Shown here: positions 1-19,775 of the stretch, piece after piece
Layout: the number at the start of each line of letters is the position of its first letter
How positions within the stretch are numbered: the stretch's first letter is position 1
DNA from: a virus
DNA: 22,040 nucleotides
Reading direction: 5' to 3' (one strand)
Virus record (IMG/VR): IMGVR_UViG_3300021963_006227
Span: 1-22,040 of that record
Program-made: the position numbers and the translations under genes
The notes under the pieces: model-generated
The model's input: only the letters and a program-made list of their open reading frames with translations
Told to the model about the DNA's origin: nothing
Databases searched by the model: none

Positions 1-741
1 CGCCTTAACGCTGTTTGCTAGTAGCTGCTCTAGGTTTACGCCAGTCGGATCGACCTGAGCGTCTAAGGCATCGTGAGCCCCGTCCCGTGTTGAAGTCTCC
101 TTTGGGAGCGATAAATAAGTCTTGTTCGCCTCGTCAACCTTCTCCGCTGGGATGTAGTTTTCGCTTATGTAAATTAATTTTGTGCCAGCTTTGGCCCCGT
201 AAAAGAGGTTGGGCACCTGCGTGGCCCTGATATCAGACCCAGGAATCTTTTTTGAGATTTCGCGGGTAAACCACTGGTAGAACCCCGTATCTATTATTTC
301 TTTACCTAGACCAAAAACTAGACGGAAGCGGGGCCAACCGTCCTCGCTGCTTGGGGAGTAGTAAGCGAAACTTAAATATTTACGGCAAATATCGAGTTCT
401 AGTGCTTGCTGTTCATTTAACTCTTGCTTTTGTATTTTGTTTCCATCTTTATCCTTACCGTCCGCTTGATTATCAACGTCGATAATTATTAATCCAGCTT
501 TTATACATCCCGTTTCGTTTCGCGATCTTTTCCCGTCAACTAAATGCCACGCACATAAGCCATATCCTTTTTCGACTTCTTCACTAATAACCTGAGTGTT
601 ATTTTGTAATGCTTCCCAGTTCTCGTTGAACGCTTTAAAGTTACCGCCTGCCGAGATCTTGCCGGTTCGGGGATTGACGTGCTTCTGAACCTCTTGATTC
701 CGGCTGTAGTAAAACTTCATCGGTGAACCCCGCGCAGACAT
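1..741 (-). CDS. Primase (PrimPol/AEP-like) N-terminal part, runs off left edge
   Basis: Open reading frame with no stop before the window edge, so the C-terminus (probably the helicase part of a primase-helicase) is missing. Counting from the second ATG (position 720), residues 76-83 read GLIIIDVD, the hydrophobic DxD metal motif of archaeo-eukaryotic primase/PrimPol domains. YYSPSS (120-125) and PRFRLVF (130-136) fit the next conserved block of phage primases. GSDIRATQVPNLFYGAK (161-177) resembles the later D...FYG block. The role would be RNA or DNA primer synthesis for phage replication. Two in-frame ATGs exist (741 and 720); neither has a good ribosome site and the longer is listed. The gene follows the exonuclease gene in the same frame, with one TAA and 39 nt between them. 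Family assignment is by motif only; the helicase part cannot be seen. Confidence 0.75.
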   Translation of the reverse strand, partial: MSARGSPMKFYYSRNQEVQKHVNPRTGKISAGGNFKAFNENWEALQNNTQVISEEVEKGYGLCAWHLVDGKRSRNETGCIKAGLIIIDVDNQADGKDKDGNKIQKQELNEQQALELDICRKYLSFAYYSPSSEDGWPRFRLVFGLGKEIIDTGFYQWFTREISKKIPGSDIRATQVPNLFYGAKAGTKLIYISENYIPAEKVDEANKTYLSLPKETSTRDGAHDALDAQVDPTGVNLEQLLANSVKA

Positions 742-780: not shown

Positions 781-1560
781 TTAAGGGGGAGTTTGTTGAT
801 TGTAAAACTGTTTGACGACCTCCAGCCATTGTTTTTCGTGTTTTTCTACATCATTTTTACCAAAGGTGAATACTTGAACAGAGAACTCGGGGATTGCTGT
901 TGAAACAATAATCTGTGTTTTATCGATTGAAATACCTAAGCAACTTTCGGCTGCAAGTTTATAAGCTGCTAATTGAAGTTGTGTCTTTTTTAGTTTGAAT
1001 ACTCCGGAAATTAAAGCCTTTCGTAGTTTGTCGTCGATCTTTTGATCTGCTCTTGGAAACTTATAACTGTAGGGGCCCACTGAAGTTTTAAAATCTCCCA
1101 GAATAATCTCACCGTTGCCGTCGACGTAAATAATGTCACAACAACCCGCGTAACCGTGACCGGTTTGCTCGTCGTAATAATGAATCCGTCCTACACCATC
1201 TTCTCCTATGTATTGAGACCACTGGGGTTGGTTGTACGGTTTTTCGGACCATAAAACTTTTCCGTTGCCCAATAACTCTTCGAGCTTCGTAGGCATCCCG
1301 TCCCAGTAAGGCTGATATTCTTTTGGGGGTTCAACTCGTAGACCCCGTATCCAATTCTCTACGGCGTTATGGATAAATGAACCTCTTGCCGCTGCGTTTT
1401 CTAAAGCGCCTGGATTCATCAGATTCCAGTGCGCTAATTTTTTACGAGTTTCTTCTGTTTGCGTGGAGGATAAAACGCTCGTAACAGATGCTAGCGGTTT
1501 AGGTACACCATAGCAGTTGTAATGCCTTAAACCGTTAATAGTTAATCGTGTTTGGGACAC
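781..1560 (-). CDS. PD-(D/E)XK exonuclease, RecB/Cas4-like
   Basis: A 259-residue protein with the ordered motifs of the PD-(D/E)XK nuclease superfamily in its RecB/Cas4 branch. ARGSFIHNAVE (58-68) holds the N-terminal His. VLWSEKP (102-108) holds an acidic residue. GCCDIIYVDG (139-148) supplies the metal Asp, GDFKTS (155-160) is the (D/E)xK motif with Asp in the variable position, and QLQLAAY (194-200) matches the QxxxY motif. In phages such enzymes act as 5'-3' exonucleases in recombination, replication-end processing or host DNA degradation. The length is normal for a stand-alone phage member. It sits between an HNH gene and the primase on the same strand, so it is probably transcribed with them. 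No ribosome site is obvious. The fold is well supported; the exact substrate is inferred. Confidence 0.85.
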   Translation of the reverse strand: MSQTRLTINGLRHYNCYGVPKPLASVTSVLSSTQTEETRKKLAHWNLMNPGALENAAARGSFIHNAVENWIRGLRVEPPKEYQPYWDGMPTKLEELLGNGKVLWSEKPYNQPQWSQYIGEDGVGRIHYYDEQTGHGYAGCCDIIYVDGNGEIILGDFKTSVGPYSYKFPRADQKIDDKLRKALISGVFKLKKTQLQLAAYKLAAESCLGISIDKTQIIVSTAIPEFSVQVFTFGKNDVEKHEKQWLEVVKQFYNQQTPP

Positions 1561-5958: not shown

Positions 5959-6744
5959 TTAGCGCCCGGCAGCTCCATACTTCTGCAGATATTCCGGTGA
6001 TTGCCGGAAAGCTTGCTGCAATTGTTGATATTCTTCAGAACTAATAGAACGATCAGCCGATCTAGGGTCCTTTGTAGTCCAATATTCCAAACCAGCGACA
6101 TCAGGTTCGCGACCTAATTCTTCTCTATAAAGTTTTTTAATGTTGTACTCAGGAGACAGCATAAAGTCGCGTTCAAGGGTGTTCCTTTCCTCTCGGGTGA
6201 TCCCTCCCGCTGCACGACCTTCACTCATCCACGACTTAAGTCCCGCTTCTTCTGGTTCGCGACCCAACACGTCACGATACAGTTGAGTGATTGTTTCTCT
6301 AGCTTGTTCTTCAGGAGTTTGAACTTTTGGGGGCGGAGGAGTAACTGTCTGCGGCTCTGATTTTTTCTCTTCAGGCTTTTTCTCGCTCAGTTTACGTAAA
6401 ATGTCTGATTGACTAAGTAAAGTTTGCTTTAATCCTTCAATTTGACTGGTGTAATCCGGAGCCTGTGCTGTTTGAGCAGGAGGCGTGGTGATATTAATAT
6501 TTGTCGGTGTTCCTCCTTCTCTTGCCTGCACCATTTCCTTCGGAGTATATTTAACTTCCTGCTCGGCCATTTGCGGTGCGCGACCCAAACGTCCGCCGCG
6601 AGCACCTTTCGCGGAAATACGGAGACTTAACTCGGGAAAATATTTAGCTAATACGGACTGGCTTTCTTCGACTTCACCCGCCGTGGTAAAGCCCAGGATG
6701 TCCCCAGCGATACGCTCTGGCACAGAAGTTCTGCGAGGAGCCAT
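5959..6744 (-). CDS. DUF4214 domain protein
   Basis: A 261-residue protein. Two DUF4214-like repeats occupy about 152-200 (TQLYRDVLGREPEEAGLKSW) and 201-253 (KKLYREELGREPDVAGLEYW), each ending in an SPEY motif. Before them lie a Pro- and Gln-rich linker (about 75-150, with TPPPPK) and a charged region around residue 115 that may be coiled coil. The N-terminal 70 residues are unassigned. DUF4214 is common in cyanobacterial surface and phage virion-associated proteins, but its role is unknown; here it stands among replication genes. Virion or scaffold function is possible but not shown. Confidence 0.8.
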   Translation of the reverse strand: MAPRRTSVPERIAGDILGFTTAGEVEESQSVLAKYFPELSLRISAKGARGGRLGRAPQMAEQEVKYTPKEMVQAREGGTPTNINITTPPAQTAQAPDYTSQIEGLKQTLLSQSDILRKLSEKKPEEKKSEPQTVTPPPPKVQTPEEQARETITQLYRDVLGREPEEAGLKSWMSEGRAAGGITREERNTLERDFMLSPEYNIKKLYREELGREPDVAGLEYWTTKDPRSADRSISSEEYQQLQQAFRQSPEYLQKYGAAGR

Positions 6745-15527: not shown

Positions 15528-15950
15528 TCACTTGATACGAGTAAAAGCGAGAACAATCTTATCCGTGATCTCATCGCAGACTCCTGCTGTTACTAGCTGT
15601 TCTGCTTCGTGTTTCAAACACAGCTTTGCCAACTTAAGTTCGCTCTCAAGTTTGGAAACTTTTGCCACGAGCTTTTCGAGCTTCGTGTGCTGCGTGGGCT
15701 TTCTGTGAATACGAACGACGATGTTCGTGTTGAAGTTAGGGAATCGGAAGCGGCTCTCTTCGCCGGAAAAGAGTCGGAGATCCAATCCCTCTGCCTCTGC
15801 GATAGTCACATCGCGAAGCAAATTATCTTTGGCGGCGTTATAAGGAACACCGAAAGAACCGTTTAGTTCTTGCTGCGCAGTATCGAATTCGTTGAAAGCT
15901 TCTGCAGCTAGAGAACCTAGAGAAACAAGTTCTGAAGTTTTAATTGTCAT
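15528..15950 (-). CDS. Hypothetical protein with C-terminal coiled coil (140 aa)
   Basis: A 140-residue protein. MTIKTSELVSLG is taken as the start because an upstream in-frame ATG would translate through a promoter and a folded RNA element. Residues 1-90 are mixed alpha-beta. Residues about 88-122 (KLEKLVAKVSKLESELKLAK) form a clear heptad-type coiled coil, suggesting oligomerisation. The start region carries the CAAACTCC motif (TCAAACTCCTATG) shared with other small genes here, and a good promoter lies upstream. The family was not recognised. Confidence 0.7.
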   Translation of the reverse strand: MTIKTSELVSLGSLAAEAFNEFDTAQQELNGSFGVPYNAAKDNLLRDVTIAEAEGLDLRLFSGEESRFRFPNFNTNIVVRIHRKPTQHTKLEKLVAKVSKLESELKLAKLCLKHEAEQLVTAGVCDEITDKIVLAFTRIK

Positions 15951-16016
15951 AGGAGTTTGATGTTGATGTTTGGTAGGCGCACCACGTTTGGTCGGGCCGG
16001 TGCCGCCCGTATACGC

Positions 16017-16045
16017 ACTGTATAGTATTGGGAGTTTGGTGTCAA
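16017..16045 (-). promoter_or_regulatory. Promoter with consensus -35 box
   Basis: On the minus strand TTGACA is followed after 17 nt by TACAGT. The leader to the ATG of the 140-residue protein is about 60 nt. The spacer itself contains a copy of CAAACTCCC. It is the best sigma-70 type promoter seen in the window and would serve the 140-residue and membrane-protein genes up to the terminator. Confidence 0.55.
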
Positions 16046-16053
16046 TAGGTGAG

Positions 16054-16131
16054 TCGGGACTGGGGGAATCAAACCCCACACATGCCGCGCTCAAACTCCC
16101 ATAAAAACGCGGTAGCCGTCAGGCGTCCCGA
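16054..16131 (-). other. tRNA-like branched RNA element
   Basis: On the minus strand a 7-bp closing stem (TCGGGAC with GTCCCGA) encloses three hairpins. The first is a 3-bp arm GCC-TGAC-GGC. The second is a 5-bp arm CCGCG/CGCGG with an 18-nt loop. The third is a 5-bp arm TGGGG/CCCCA with loop TTTGATTC, which resembles a T-arm. The order is that of a cloverleaf, but the oversized second loop and 8-nt third loop exclude an ordinary tRNA. It lies between the 60-residue gene and the promoter. The large loop holds ATGGGAGTTTG, the complement of the CAAACTCCCAT start-site motif. It may be a 3' UTR-derived regulatory RNA, a decayed tRNA or chance folding. Confidence 0.35.
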
Positions 16132-16162
16132 GGCTCAACTTAAGTGTAGCTAAAAATACAAG

Positions 16163-16345
16163 TTACCTTTTCGGGTAAACCGCTAGTTGATGCTTCTGTA
16201 GTTCGATGTGCTCACGCAGCACAAGTTCTTTTGCGTGGGCCTCGGACTTAGCTTCAACTGAACACTTATAAGACCATCCAGATTTACCTTTGCAAGCAAA
16301 AATGTCAAATCGCTTTAATTTCGTGTTGCTTAGCTGGACGGACAC
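16163..16345 (-). CDS. Small basic protein (60 aa)
   Basis: A 60-residue basic protein with a GTG start. RFDIFACKGKSGWSYKCSVEA suggests two beta strands, followed by a helix EAHAKELVLREHIELQKHQL, an alpha-beta layout seen in small phage proteins. No Shine-Dalgarno sequence precedes it, but a 219-nt AT-rich gap with paired direct repeats does. Not recognised. Confidence 0.55.
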   Translation of the reverse strand: MSVQLSNTKLKRFDIFACKGKSGWSYKCSVEAKSEAHAKELVLREHIELQKHQLAVYPKR

Positions 16346-16403
16346 GGGAAAAAATTAAATCCGCACGAATTTAATCAGTTTAGCGTGTCGGCGTCACGTC
16401 ATC

Positions 16404-16453
16404 TAATGTTTGTTTAATGTTTTGCATAATCTTACGTAACAAACACTTACGTA
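16404..16453. repeat. Two pairs of short direct repeats in a promoter-like gap
   Basis: TAATGTTT occurs twice with an 11-bp period (16404 and 16415), and CTTACGTA occurs twice with a 15-bp period (16431 and 16446). They lie in an AT-rich 219-nt gap upstream of the 60-residue gene. A weak minus-strand promoter, TTGTTA and CATTAA with 17-nt spacing, overlaps them, so they may be binding sites for a regulator. Confidence 0.4.
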
Positions 16454-16564
16454 TTTATTTAGATAGCTTGGCTGTCAGCGTTTTAATAAAAATCTTTTGT
16501 TAACTTCAAGTGCTTAACGTGAATTTCAAAGTCTCTGTGAAGATAAATTCCTCTCTGTAGGATT

Positions 16565-16759
16565 TCAAAAGGTCCTATCATCAATCTTCTCTATCTGGGT
16601 TTCTAAGACGGCGCCTTCGTGCGCCATAGCAAACCCGTTAGCGAAACCACTAGCGAAGATAAAAACGTCAGTTTCCGTGTTGAAGTTTCTATGGGTTTCG
16701 AGAATCATTTGCTCTCCATCGTTCGACTCAATCTGAACTTTGACTTTGTAATACTTCAT
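16565..16759 (-). CDS. Small hypothetical protein (64 aa)
   Basis: A 64-residue protein beginning MKYYKVKVQIESNDGEQMIL and ending EKIDDRTF. A beta hairpin, then a helix (VFIFASGFANGFAMA), then a strand is likely. The last codons (IDDRT) recur as an out-of-frame remnant about 2 kb to the right, indicating a past duplication. A copy of the covarying hairpin repeat lies just upstream. Unrecognised family. Confidence 0.65.
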   Translation of the reverse strand: MKYYKVKVQIESNDGEQMILETHRNFNTETDVFIFASGFANGFAMAHEGAVLETQIEKIDDRTF

Positions 16760-16770
16760 GATGTTGAGTA

Positions 16771-16799
16771 GATTGTGTGAGTTGGCCTCGCGGAGCGAG
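16771..16799 (-). repeat. Intergenic hairpin repeat, copy 1
   Basis: Begins (plus strand) with gattgtgtgagttggcc and ends in the hairpin CTCGC-GGA-GCGAG. The hairpin ends 6 nt after the stop of the gene upstream of it. Copies 2 and 3 keep the same layout with different but still paired stem bases. There is no T-tract, so it is not an ordinary terminator. Confidence 0.7.
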
Positions 16800-16805
16800 A
16801 GCGGA

Positions 16806-17048
16806 TTAGCCCGGTTCGCGTTGGATAAACGCCACCTGTGCCATCCCGCGTGGCCTCAACTCTACTAAGTCTCCACAGTCCTGACGGTCACACCGTACAC
16901 CATTCCAACCAATCTCACGTTTAGCTCGTCTTACTGCTGTAGCGTCTGTCGCTTCGATACAATACTTTTCGACCCAGCTGTAGTTAGCTTGGCCGCCAAA
17001 GGTGTCGGTGACTTCGATGAAGTAAAACGCTCTGGAGTTTGTGCTCAT
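16806..17048 (-). CDS. Small conserved cyanophage-type protein (80 aa)
   Basis: An 80-residue protein with AFYFIEVTDTFGGQANYSWV near the N-terminus, a motif I associate with small proteins common in cyanophages and other marine phages, followed by a YCIEATDATAVRRAKREIGW strand-helix. Function unknown. The ATG chosen (MSTNSRAF) lies 16 nt after the preceding stop; an upstream in-frame Met would overlap that gene. The first codons contain CACAAACTCC, the motif seen at other starts in this array. Confidence 0.7.
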   Translation of the reverse strand: MSTNSRAFYFIEVTDTFGGQANYSWVEKYCIEATDATAVRRAKREIGWNGVRCDRQDCGDLVELRPRGMAQVAFIQREPG

Positions 17049-17064
17049 GATTAGATGCTTGAAT

Positions 17065-17388
17065 TTACTGTTGAAAAGAAGGAAGTTCGGGCTGCGTGGA
17101 TACCTTTGTGATCTTGCCGGGTTCAAATGATTGCCACCGATTGAATTCGGAGACAGTTACGTTAACCCGGACAGAGTGACGGTTGGTCCAACTGGCGAAG
17201 TCTTTGTCGAGTTGGTACAGCCCACCCCAATCACATCCTTCCTCAAAGAGTGCAACGATGTGACCGTAAGATCCCAGGCAAACGATTAGTCTGCGGGGAT
17301 TACCGTTGGCGTCATTGGATGTGCAGATGTGCAGCACGTTGTTAACGCGCCGAACGTTTGCGTTTTCGTAATGGAGAAAGTAAGTCAT
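17065..17388 (-). CDS. Small protein with NGNPRR motif (107 aa), paralogue 1
   Basis: A 107-residue protein. VLHICTSNDANGNPRRLIVC (about 17-36), then GHIVALFEEG, is shared with the 89-residue protein near 20.9 kb (IQHLCTHNDRNGNPRRLYAL, then RIAVWDEG), so the two are paralogues. The NGNPRR motif is one I associate with small phage proteins of unknown function. The start overlaps the stop of the preceding gene by ATGA. The C-terminus (KDFASWTNRHSVRVNVTVSE) is unrelated to the paralogue. Confidence 0.7.
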   Translation of the reverse strand: MTYFLHYENANVRRVNNVLHICTSNDANGNPRRLIVCLGSYGHIVALFEEGCDWGGLYQLDKDFASWTNRHSVRVNVTVSEFNRWQSFEPGKITKVSTQPELPSFQQ

Positions 17389-17624
17389 TGTTGTTCGATA
17401 AGATCGAGTTTGTTGCGCAGCCGAGCCACACATTTACCTAAAGGTTTGGGATACATCATCTCTGCGTAGAGGCAGAGTTGTTCAGCTGCGATTAAGTGTC
17501 GCTCCTCCCAATCATTTACAGTGTCGTCGTTGAGCATCGTTTGCCGCTCGATAACTTGCTGTAGTTGTGAGGGTGAAAGAAGGTCCAACACTGATGCTAC
17601 ACTGTGTGTCAAGTGTCCGATCAT
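17385..17624 (-). CDS. Small helical protein (79 aa)
   Basis: A 79-residue protein, almost wholly helical (SVLDLLSPSQLQQVIERQTM, then ERHLIAAEQLCLYAEMM). It overlaps the start of the NGNPRR gene by 4 nt. Copy 2 of the hairpin repeat lies in its leader. Unrecognised. Confidence 0.65.
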   Translation of the reverse strand: MIGHLTHSVASVLDLLSPSQLQQVIERQTMLNDDTVNDWEERHLIAAEQLCLYAEMMYPKPLGKCVARLRNKLDLIEQQ

Positions 17625-17645
17625 GACTGTTCAGAATGTTGAAGT

Positions 17646-17673
17646 GATTGTGTGAAATGGCCCCGCGAAGCGG
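17646..17673 (-). repeat. Intergenic hairpin repeat, copy 2
   Basis: Begins gattgtgtgaaatggcc (plus strand) and ends in CCGC-GAA-GCGG. It lies 6 nt after the stop of the 55-residue gene, the same place as copy 1. It is the most divergent copy and has a 4-bp stem. Confidence 0.6.
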
Positions 17674-17679
17674 TGTGAG

Positions 17680-17847
17680 CTATACGAGTCGACCTGAACT
17701 CATGTCATCCAAGATGCGCTCGCAAACTTCATCATCGACGTGCAGCAATAATGCTCGGGCGATAAACAATTCGTGCCCGTGGAGATCTATAAGTTCGCGC
17801 AGTTTATCCCGCGCATCTTGTCCATCGTATAGTTTGTAAATGTCCAC
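17680..17847 (-). CDS. Small acidic protein (55 aa)
   Basis: A 55-residue protein with a GTG start two bases after the preceding TAA. It reads DIYKLYDGQDARDKLREL near the N-terminus and ALLLHVDDEVCERILDDMSS later, so it is mostly helical and acidic. Unrecognised; the tight spacing on both sides supports it as a gene. Confidence 0.55.
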   Translation of the reverse strand: MDIYKLYDGQDARDKLRELIDLHGHELFIARALLLHVDDEVCERILDDMSSGRLV

Positions 17848-17849
17848 GG

Positions 17850-18011
17850 TTAGACGTACAGATTGGGTTTGTAGTTAGTTAGCTTTTCGAGTTTGCACTC
17901 AAGACTATCGGGATCCTGCAGCCACGAATCCAACCACTGCAGTAGTTCTTCGCGGTCCGCTATACCCTGCAGACCATAATCGTCTGACGCTTCGAGTTGG
18001 TGCATTGTCAT
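17850..18011 (-). CDS. Small acidic protein (53 aa)
   Basis: A 53-residue protein, MTMHQLEASDDYGLQGIADR at the start, with LLQWLDSWLQDPDSLECKLE forming amphipathic helices. It stands 14 nt after the stop of the 125-residue gene and directly before the 55-residue gene. Unrecognised. Confidence 0.55.
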   Translation of the reverse strand: MTMHQLEASDDYGLQGIADREELLQWLDSWLQDPDSLECKLEKLTNYKPNLYV

Positions 18012-18025
18012 GGTGTTAGTTAACC

Positions 18026-18403
18026 TCAGTTGTTGTGTTGTTTGTCGGCGTACTCTTTAAGAATCGCGTCCAAAGTTCGCGGGGAGAGTACAGGTTTGGC
18101 GCGATTAACTTGCGCCTTCCATTCATCAGCGCGTGGCCACTCCTTAGCGTTAGGTTCTGGGCCTGACAGTTCCTCTGCGAAAGTATCGTCCCACGCTTTA
18201 GCTAACTGGATTGCTTCATAGATTGGACCGAAGAACCGACCAGCCATAAGTTGTGACTCAATATGAGTGATCGTCCAATTGCACTTCTCCTTATAGAAGC
18301 CATCTGTTTTGTAGGGTCGATGTACCGCAAGGGCTTTACCTTGCCACTTCACTTCTGCGGCAATCACACCGTGGTTTGTGTTGATTGTGATTGTGTTAGC
18401 CAT
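18026..18403 (-). CDS. Small hypothetical protein (125 aa)
   Basis: A 125-residue protein. MANTITINTNHGVIAAEVKW is chosen as the start because the leader ACAAACTCCCATG, with the array's recurrent motif touching the ATG, precedes it; an upstream Met would add 14 residues of low-complexity sequence. N-terminal strands (TITINTNHGVIAAEVKW, ALAVHRPY), a central helix (PIYEAIQLAKAWDDTFAEEL) and a charged C-terminal helix are seen. The loop of the branched RNA element is complementary to 11 nt across its start. Confidence 0.65.
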   Translation of the reverse strand: MANTITINTNHGVIAAEVKWQGKALAVHRPYKTDGFYKEKCNWTITHIESQLMAGRFFGPIYEAIQLAKAWDDTFAEELSGPEPNAKEWPRADEWKAQVNRAKPVLSPRTLDAILKEYADKQHNN

Positions 18404-18428
18404 GGGAGTTTGTGTGTTGTGTTGTAGT

Positions 18429-18662
18429 TTATGAGTTGGCTTCAAGCATAAAAACGGGAATGTCTTTATCGTCTTTAAGTTCGGTTGGAGTTAACTTAAT
18501 TAACCCACGAGCCTCCAGCGATAAAGCTATTCTCATGTTTCGTTGAGTCAGTGCAACGTAATTCGGGCCAGGATTGTGACGCAGAAAGTTAAACCAATTG
18601 CGCTGAAGTGCACCTAGCGGACGGTTGCCAAAGTTAGGTGGTGTTGTGCTGGCGTCTGTCAC
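18429..18662 (-). CDS. Small winged-helix-like protein (77 aa)
   Basis: A 77-residue protein with a GTG start and an AAGGA ribosome site nine bases upstream. GALQRNWFNFLRHNPGPNYV, then LTQRNMRIALSLEARGLIKL, looks like a compact winged helix (helix, turn, recognition helix ending in RGLI.L). This suggests DNA or RNA binding. I associate the RN.RIA.SLEARGLI pattern with small cyanophage and cyanobacterial proteins, without a known role. Confidence 0.6.
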   Translation of the reverse strand: MTDASTTPPNFGNRPLGALQRNWFNFLRHNPGPNYVALTQRNMRIALSLEARGLIKLTPTELKDDKDIPVFMLEANS

Positions 18663-18674
18663 AGGCCCTGATCC

Positions 18675-18704
18675 TTAAGTCCTATCATCAATCCGGTCGA
18701 TCTT
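18675..18704 (-). pseudogene. Remnant of a paralogous gene 3' end
   Basis: Out of frame after the stop of the 115-residue gene, ten codons read KIDRIDDRT and stop. This matches EKIDDRTF at the end of the 64-residue gene, with 15 identical bases (GATTGATGATAGGAC). It is either a leftover of a duplicated gene or the true end of the 115-residue protein reached by a frameshift in the GGGGG run. Confidence 0.4.
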
Positions 18705-19050
18705 ACCCCCTGACGAAGTTGTGCTGACTTTCTAGTTCGATCTCCCAGTCTTGTTCTTCGATTGCGTGACCGTACCACTTACGGTTCTTCTGATAAATAC
18801 CAGCGCCACATAGTTCGCGCAGGATTGCATTTAGGCGCGACTTGGTTGTAGTTGTTTGCCAACCACAATCACAGATAGATACAGTGTCGTGTGTGATCTG
18901 CGCGATGCGATTGTTGTGCAGATAAACGTTGATGCGCTGGATTGGTTTGTCAGCGTGGGCGAAGTAAGTTACCTGCACTCGTGTGTTGTTAGACTTCCAA
19001 TCTTTGTGATCAAGAATGGCAGCCAACATCTGGCGTTCGATGAGTCTCAT
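18703..19050 (-). CDS. Small conserved cyanophage-type protein (115 aa)
   Basis: A 115-residue protein. RLIERQMLAAILDHKDWKSN, VYLHNNRIAQI, then DCGWQTTTTKSRLNAILREL match a pattern I associate with small cyanophage proteins (DW..NT, VxLHxxxIA, GWxTxTTKSRLNAIL). Function is unknown. MRLIERQ is taken as the start; the leader carries ACAAACTCCCAAACC. The C-terminus reads NFVRG and stops in a G-rich run that could allow a frameshift into IDDRT. Confidence 0.7.
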   Translation of the reverse strand: MRLIERQMLAAILDHKDWKSNNTRVQVTYFAHADKPIQRINVYLHNNRIAQITHDTVSICDCGWQTTTTKSRLNAILRELCGAGIYQKNRKWYGHAIEEQDWEIELESQHNFVRG

Positions 19051-19072
19051 GGTTTGGGAGTTTGTGTTGGGA

Positions 19073-19544: not shown

Positions 19545-19735
19545 GATTCAGCCTCAGTAATCTGTTGACGAAGGTCGGCAATCAATCCCTGTAGGGTATA
19601 AGAACGTGCCGCCGTGGTTGCATCATCAAGCGCACATTCAAGCTGCCACAGTGCATCCTTAGCATCTTCGATTGTTAGGAATGTGTCGGTGACATAGTGC
19701 ACACCGTACTCATCGCATTGTGTGAGTTCAATCAT
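19541..19735 (-). CDS. Small hypothetical protein (64 aa)
   Basis: A 64-residue acidic protein (YGVHYVTDTFLTIEDAKDAL, then YTLQGLIADLRQQITEAES). It resembles a strand-helix-helix unit. Copy 3 of the hairpin repeat lies in its leader and it overlaps the next gene by 4 nt. Unrecognised. Confidence 0.6.
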   Translation of the reverse strand: MIELTQCDEYGVHYVTDTFLTIEDAKDALWQLECALDDATTAARSYTLQGLIADLRQQITEAES

Positions 19736-19746
19736 GATGTGAGTGT

Positions 19747-19775
19747 GATTGTGTGAGTTGGCCCAGCGGAGCTGG
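19747..19775 (-). repeat. Intergenic hairpin repeat, copy 3
   Basis: Its first 17 bases are identical to copy 1 (gattgtgtgagttggcc on the plus strand); it ends in CCAGC-GGA-GCTGG. Two stem pairs differ from copy 1 with both sides changed. It lies 2 nt after the stop of the 87-residue gene. Confidence 0.7.

Follow-up and report, generated by a model that had tools for sequence, protein, structure and literature searches.

A Covarying tRNA-like RNA Element with a Putative Antisense Loop Upstream of a Small Viral Gene

Introduction

Antisense RNAs of the C4 and CI types are known in a few temperate enterobacterial phages. The CI RNA of phage P4 carries a single antisense segment that matches two sites in its own transcript unit, acts by premature transcription termination and maintains immunity. 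We describe here a comparable locus in the virus record IMGVR_UViG_3300021963_006227 of IMG/VR, a stretch of 22,040 bases hereafter called the window, in which a tRNA-like RNA element with a large loop lies directly upstream of a gene for a protein of 140 amino acids (aa). From the comparison of related viral sequences, we consider it rather probable that this element is an antisense RNA built on a tRNA-mimic scaffold, which would block the translation of the adjacent 140-aa gene and of a few lineage-specific early genes. The parts of the locus on which this reading depends are listed below (nt, nucleotides; bp, base pairs).

Positions 16050-16131, minus strand: tRNA-like RNA element, scoring 95 bits in cmsearch with a covariance model whose training set includes the window, and supported by covariation.
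Positions 16090-16107, minus strand: 18-nt putative antisense loop of the element, UUUUUAUGGGAGUUUGAG, identified by its complementarity to start sites.
Positions 15528-15950, minus strand: 140-aa gene, the conserved neighbour of the element, with homologues beside the element in relatives.
Positions 15947-15960, minus strand: site S2, TCAAACTCCTATGA, spanning the start codon of the 140-aa gene and forming 14 bp with the loop, two of them G-U, in a duplex calculation.
Positions 16029-16038, minus strand: site S1, CAAACTCCCA, 10 nt complementary to the loop, within the spacer of a promoter.

The closest functional relative of the element is the C4 antisense RNA of phages P1 and P7 (RF01695), which in P1 is encoded directly upstream of its target, is released by host RNase P (PMC5320573; PMC11143913) and occludes ribosome-binding sites with its loop (PMC5320573). 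In the annotated P1 record, c4 occupies positions 48343-48419, a2 48423-48429 and b2 48452-48459, while icd begins at 48470. On the antisense reading, the element shares with C4 the character of a roughly 80-nt phage antisense RNA encoded directly upstream of the controlled gene, with one site just 3' of the RNA (here S1) and another in the start region of the target (here S2). C4, however, has a long closing stem P1 and two inner hairpins and pairs via two separate segments, whereas the element forms a cloverleaf with D-like and T-like arms and exposes a single putative antisense loop. Membership in RF01695 was rejected, since none of 14 genomes reaches the Rfam cut-off of 45 bits (68.8 bits for the c4 of P1, used as positive control); conversely, the covariance model of the element did not detect the c4 of P1 and had no hit in P4. 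Because the element is not C4 by sequence and fold, we file it as a phage antisense RNA variant outside RF01695. In having one antisense segment and two sites (S1 and S2) within its own transcript unit, it resembles the CI RNA of P4.

With phage-encoded tRNAs and the tRNA-like stable RNAs of phage T4 the element has in common an acceptor stem, a T-arm and a contact between D-loop and T-loop; unlike phage tRNAs, it has neither a 7-nt anticodon loop nor a CCA end, and its D-arm has 3 bp. In the engineered tRNA scaffold, a tRNA body stabilises an insert placed in the anticodon arm. That system, made for RNA inserts in Escherichia coli (PMC3753655), is artificial, whereas the insert of the present element would be a natural antisense loop. 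A limited search of the literature found no account of a phage antisense RNA that has a tRNA-like fold and in which the anticodon loop is exchanged.

The tRNA-like Fold

Relatives of the window, designated here by L or G numbers, were drawn from viral contigs; they are related to each other and mostly fragments, their gene starts were computed, and the evidence on the element and its pairing is comparative throughout. A covariance-model search detected homologous elements in about 20 distinct contigs, each directly preceding the 140-aa gene. Scanning the viral contigs for the exact loop recovered one true relative, L082, the rest being unrelated sequences, and a scan for loop plus T-arm returned already known members together with unrelated tRNA-like matches.

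The element comprises a 6-bp acceptor stem, a 3-bp D-like arm with a 4-nt loop and a long middle arm, followed in its 3' half by a 5-nt variable region, a T-arm with the 7-nt loop of tRNA type and the tail ACUCA. Among 17 sequences, 98.0% of 350 pair cells are formed; in a control in which the partners were slid by 1-3 columns, pairing falls to only 40-53%. Two-sided changes occur in 15 of the 21 pairs of the fold, a number reached by none of 500 shuffles, and the covariation score of the same 17 sequences is 0.57 versus 0.26 in shuffles. The contact between D-loop and T-loop (columns 13 and 65) alternates between A-U (8 genomes) and G-C (7 genomes), an alignment gap displacing two further rows. 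On this comparative evidence the cloverleaf fold is proven by covariation, and the branched element is a tRNA mimic, a resemblance not seen in an earlier note made from the sequence of the window alone.

The features of tRNA that the element presents, namely acceptor stem, T-arm and the elbow contact of D-loop and T-loop, are documented by both pairs and covariation. A real tRNA was considered and rejected: there is no 7-nt anticodon loop, the 3' end is ACUCA or similar instead of CCA, and ARAGORN reported 0 tRNAs. No Rfam family, the tRNA model included, matches the window at cut-off; a similarity to tRNA-Sec in L016 and L057 is weak and sub-threshold, and weak matches of the element region to miRNA precursors in the Rfam scan are attributed to chance.

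Loop sizes range from 3 to 22 nt across the elements, loops of 18-22 nt standing in place of the anticodon loop. In L009 and L010 the 5' half of the element has decayed (37.6 bits). The scaffold is retained with loops of 3-14 nt that match nothing in L013, L014, L134 and L051; since it is kept even with a tiny loop, it must have a role beyond the pairing of loop and S2, perhaps in processing or stability. A second loop family with the core AGAAGCCA occurs on the same scaffold in L016 (2654-2731), L227 (11234-11311, minus strand) and L262 (5245-5322). The available sequence of these three contigs has no conserved start site complementary to this loop, the target of which may lie elsewhere. Degenerate tRNA-like sequences lie directly upstream of the 140-aa homologue also in L025 and in L033/L034 (L034, 3424-3492); these distant sequences have a good T-arm and a reduced D-arm and score below the significance of the model.

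Joint Change of the Loop and the 140-aa Start

The pairing of loop and S2 was followed in a core set of nine distinct genomes, the window included, whose long loop contains GGGAGUUU or, for L119, GGGGUUU. In these nine genomes the loop pairs with S2 in a duplex that includes the 140-aa start codon. Two pairs of sister genomes show compensatory changes: L003 has UUUGA with UCAAA where L004 has UUUAA with UUAAA, and L019 has UUUGAU with AUCAAA where L018 has UUUGGG with UCCAAA. A long duplex is maintained in L007 via G-U pairs, and in L119 the loop sequence GGGGUUU is accompanied by the start site AAACCCC. Own combinations of loop and S2 in the core set have an energy of -16.7 kcal/mol versus -15.0 kcal/mol for permuted ones (P = 0.0018), and the comparison of own with permuted pairing over 14 genomes gives P = 5e-5, values which, to the detriment of the antisense reading, overstate independence because the core genomes are related. 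Set against the other candidate ATG starts of its genome, S2 is the best site in L003, L004, L007 and the window (107-426 candidates per genome), the second best in L019 and the third best in L018 and L119.

The earlier note had named as counter-evidence a start motif kept by related phages while the loop drifts freely. We found instead that seven of the nine GGGAGUUU-type sites fit their own loop better than about 99% of dinucleotide-shuffled loops (P <= 0.012), and that genomes with unrelated or very short loops mostly have no start motif at the 140-aa gene (L006, L013, L014, L016, L120, L134 and L262); in L006, for instance, the loop has no matching 140-aa start. The exceptions are L051 and L009, which retain a AAAACCCC start without a matching loop and in which the element is altered or decayed. 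Together with the covariation-proven fold, this joint variation supports the central proposal of the note, a folded RNA whose loop pairs at start sites.

The tRNA-like fold could also be a mere processing signal, excised by enzymes of tRNA processing so that the upstream transcript is separated from the 140-aa gene, the loop match being a by-product of C/A-rich leaders. Such a signal would fit the four scaffolds kept with non-matching loops of 3-14 nt (listed above), the position of the element a few nt past the upstream stop codon in relatives such as L018 and L019, and the composition of the leaders. We regard it as unlikely nonetheless, for loop and S2 co-vary, S2 beats shuffled loops in most of the core genomes and the extra targets described below exceed chance. 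A further reading takes the loop as a minigene, which would be AUG GGA GUU UGA in the window, GUG GGA GUU UGA in L007 and L019 and AUG GGA GUU UAA in L004. This frame is maintained in several sequences, but L018 (with UGG), L142 and L119 have no such frame, and the minigene appears hardly credible.

Possible Further Targets beyond the 140-aa Gene

The motif CAAACTCC occurs 8 times in the window, compared with a mean of 0.65 and a maximum of 3 in 100 shuffles. The four start sites that the earlier note had assigned to it are present where they were placed. The complementarity of the loop extends over 11 nt at the start of the 125-aa gene, 10 nt ahead of the 115-aa gene, 12 nt including one G-U at the start of the 140-aa gene, and 8 nt within the 80-aa gene. 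Besides the 140-aa start, the sites are as follows.

Positions 18402-18412, minus strand: putative lineage-specific target overlapping the ATG of the 125-aa gene (18026-18403), -19.1 kcal/mol, P = 0.010.
Positions 19055-19064, minus strand: lineage-specific candidate target before the 115-aa Kyano_Gp96 gene (18703-19050), -16.6 kcal/mol.
Positions 17034-17041, minus strand: weak 8-nt match inside the 80-aa gene (16806-17048), -12.3 kcal/mol, probably incidental.

Two hits of CAAACTCC, at 788-795 and 6314-6321, lie away from starts. In the region 781-830 (minus strand), CAAACTCCC stands immediately before a terminator-like hairpin, CCCTTAAGGG-TTTTTT, 3' of a 259-aa gene, an arrangement that is probably incidental.

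Genome-wide counts of exact matches at starts are too weak alone, and duplex energies with dinucleotide-shuffled loops were used instead. The best three of 134 candidate ATG starts for the window loop are those of the 140-aa gene (-19.2 kcal/mol), the 125-aa gene and the 115-aa gene, and three starts at or below -16 kcal/mol are obtained with 0.8% of shuffled loops; the matches at the 125-aa and 115-aa genes go beyond chance (P = 0.01). The idea that one loop serves several genes is nevertheless not supported in the form given in the note: conservation is restricted to the 140-aa start, and the orthologues of the other genes have no motif, its absence extending to nine relatives for the 115-aa and 80-aa families and to the single orthologue found for the 125-aa gene. 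These other sites would be lineage-specific at best.

Other genomes have extra early-gene sites of their own. In G002 such a site lies at an 86-aa gene, with an exact match of 14 nt that includes a base inserted in the G002 loop; the best extra sites in G006 and G004 belong to a 57-aa and a 65-aa gene, respectively. The proteins of these extra targets have no meaningful similarity to one another across genomes, and orthologues of the 86-aa and 65-aa genes in other genomes have no site. Against shuffled loops, the best extra site of the early cluster reaches P = 0.010 in the window, 0.002 in G002, 0.022 in G004, 0.030 in G006 and 0.045 in G003, and the combined Fisher P for extra early targets beyond S2 is 2e-5 over eight genomes. 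This pattern suggests that trans targets are recruited lineage by lineage, on evidence weaker than that for S2.

S1, Promoter and Leader

From the 3' end of the element it is about 17 nt to S1, a site that the earlier note had missed, and about 90 nt to S2. Two further features belong to this interval.

Positions 16017-16045, minus strand: sigma-70-like promoter of the 140-aa gene, TTGACA-17-TACAGT, with a similar promoter in aligned relatives.
Positions 15978-16010, minus strand: conserved 5'-leader hairpin with complementary tail, GGGCGGCACCGGCCC...AACGTGGTGC.

All eight genomes with the GGGAGUUU loop share the AACTCCC core of S1, and those with a different loop do not have it; L119 has AAACCTCT, a partial match to S1. 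The promoter initiates transcription past S1, which would therefore be present only in read-through RNA. In the minimum-energy fold of that RNA, the pairing of loop and S1 replaces the middle arm in the window, L003, L004 and L142. This fold, as well as the vicinity of S1 and S2 and their status as the sole conserved sites, would suit a switch acting exclusively in cis, in which the loop would be confined to a choice of S1 or S2 on the same read-through transcript, without any action in trans. We consider this doubtful, since the promoter between element and gene yields loop-free transcripts and strong lineage-specific start sites are kilobases distant; its pairing is the same as that of our preferred explanation, so that the confidences in the two overlap.

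The alternative offered by the earlier note, that CAAACTCC is a DNA site for a regulator and the loop its inverted copy, draws on the location of S1 within a promoter spacer, a frequent position for operators, and on the invariance of its core, between the -35 and -10 hexamers, in eight genomes. The start-site copies, however, lie over start codons and not promoters; outside the core, S1 does not follow the joint changes of loop and S2 seen in L004 and L018, and the loop belongs to a proven RNA fold. A regulator site is thus quite improbable.

The leader hairpin with its tail is highly conserved. Its stem co-varies (CGGGC/GCCCG, CGGGT/ACCCG, AAGGC/GCCTT and CCGGT/ACCGG), and a pseudoknot may form between the hairpin loop GCACC and GGTGC (A-U in L119; C-G in L016, L262 and L266). 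The hairpin persists even in distant relatives that have no tRNA-like element (L294, L295 and L049) and has no Rfam match in the window.

Proposed Mechanism

The antisense reading begins with the gene upstream of the element.

Positions 16163-16345, minus strand: 60-aa gene, upstream neighbour of the element.

In L018, L019 and similar relatives the stop codon of this gene is followed a few nt on by the element, and therefore the RNA is probably made from the transcript of the 60-aa gene, with which it would be co-transcribed. Its tRNA-like ends would probably be trimmed by host tRNA-processing enzymes, e.g., RNase P, and the large loop thus freed would pair over the 140-aa start codon and block ribosome entry. 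The RNA would act in cis on read-through transcripts and in trans on those begun at the promoter of the 140-aa gene itself, downstream of the element. In several lineages its trans targets would also include one or a few other small early genes whose starts have acquired a match to the loop. S1 would capture the loop in unprocessed read-through RNA and may silence the precursor until it is cut. More tentatively, the element could represent an undescribed class of phage regulatory RNA, in which a natural tRNA scaffold has its anticodon loop turned into an exchangeable antisense segment, re-targeted between lineages with one neighbour gene as constant target and activated by a tRNA-type processing that removes an inhibitory 3' tail (S1); we see this as possible.

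Several observations weigh against the antisense reading. Some relatives of the window have no element altogether, and in about half of the elements found the loop is unrelated or very short and does not match S2. The match of S2 is weak in L142 (P = 0.10) and L119 (P = 0.07), S1 has no specificity for its own loop (core P = 0.32), as expected if loop core and S1 are both invariant, and the trans targets differ between relatives instead of being conserved. Leaders in these genomes are C/A-rich, and G/U-rich loops therefore match them more easily. Finally, 14 bp are impossible in an 18-nt hairpin loop unless the stem partly opens.

Among the products of the window are a family-A DNA polymerase, a MoxR-type ATPase and a VWA protein, and its minus strand carries many small early genes. 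The host of the virus is likely a cyanobacterium, because the 115-aa protein matches Gp96 of Kyanoviridae and the closest polymerases among isolates are those of Pseudanabaena phages (29% identity). In the isolate collection searched, no phage has a DNA match to the window or a match to the 140-aa protein; the lineage thus has no isolate there, and post-transcriptional control is little studied in such cyanophages. If our interpretation is true, the antisense principle would extend to cyanophages on a different and much more tRNA-like fold, and a virus would be using the tRNA elbow as a handle by which a regulatory RNA is stabilised or processed. With a loop that varies on a constant scaffold, these elements would also constitute a natural experiment in the re-targeting of antisense RNA.

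The 140-aa Protein and Neighbouring Regions

The 140-aa protein has a mostly helical predicted model (pLDDT 92.5) that finds no match among solved structures, and the species genomes contain no relative of it. Weak Pfam matches to SKA1 were rejected, as they look like coiled coil.

An integrase-family gene is present only in L004 (G003:C1:35618-36073), the window and seven other relatives tested being without it; most members therefore seem to be lytic, or else their sequences are incomplete. The 60-aa gene is preceded by a long non-coding stretch rich in A+T (16345-16560, minus strand), which could contain a promoter or a replication origin. A 41-base repeat, 88% identical between its copies, is found at two early-gene boundaries of the window, 19732-19772 and about 16756-16796.

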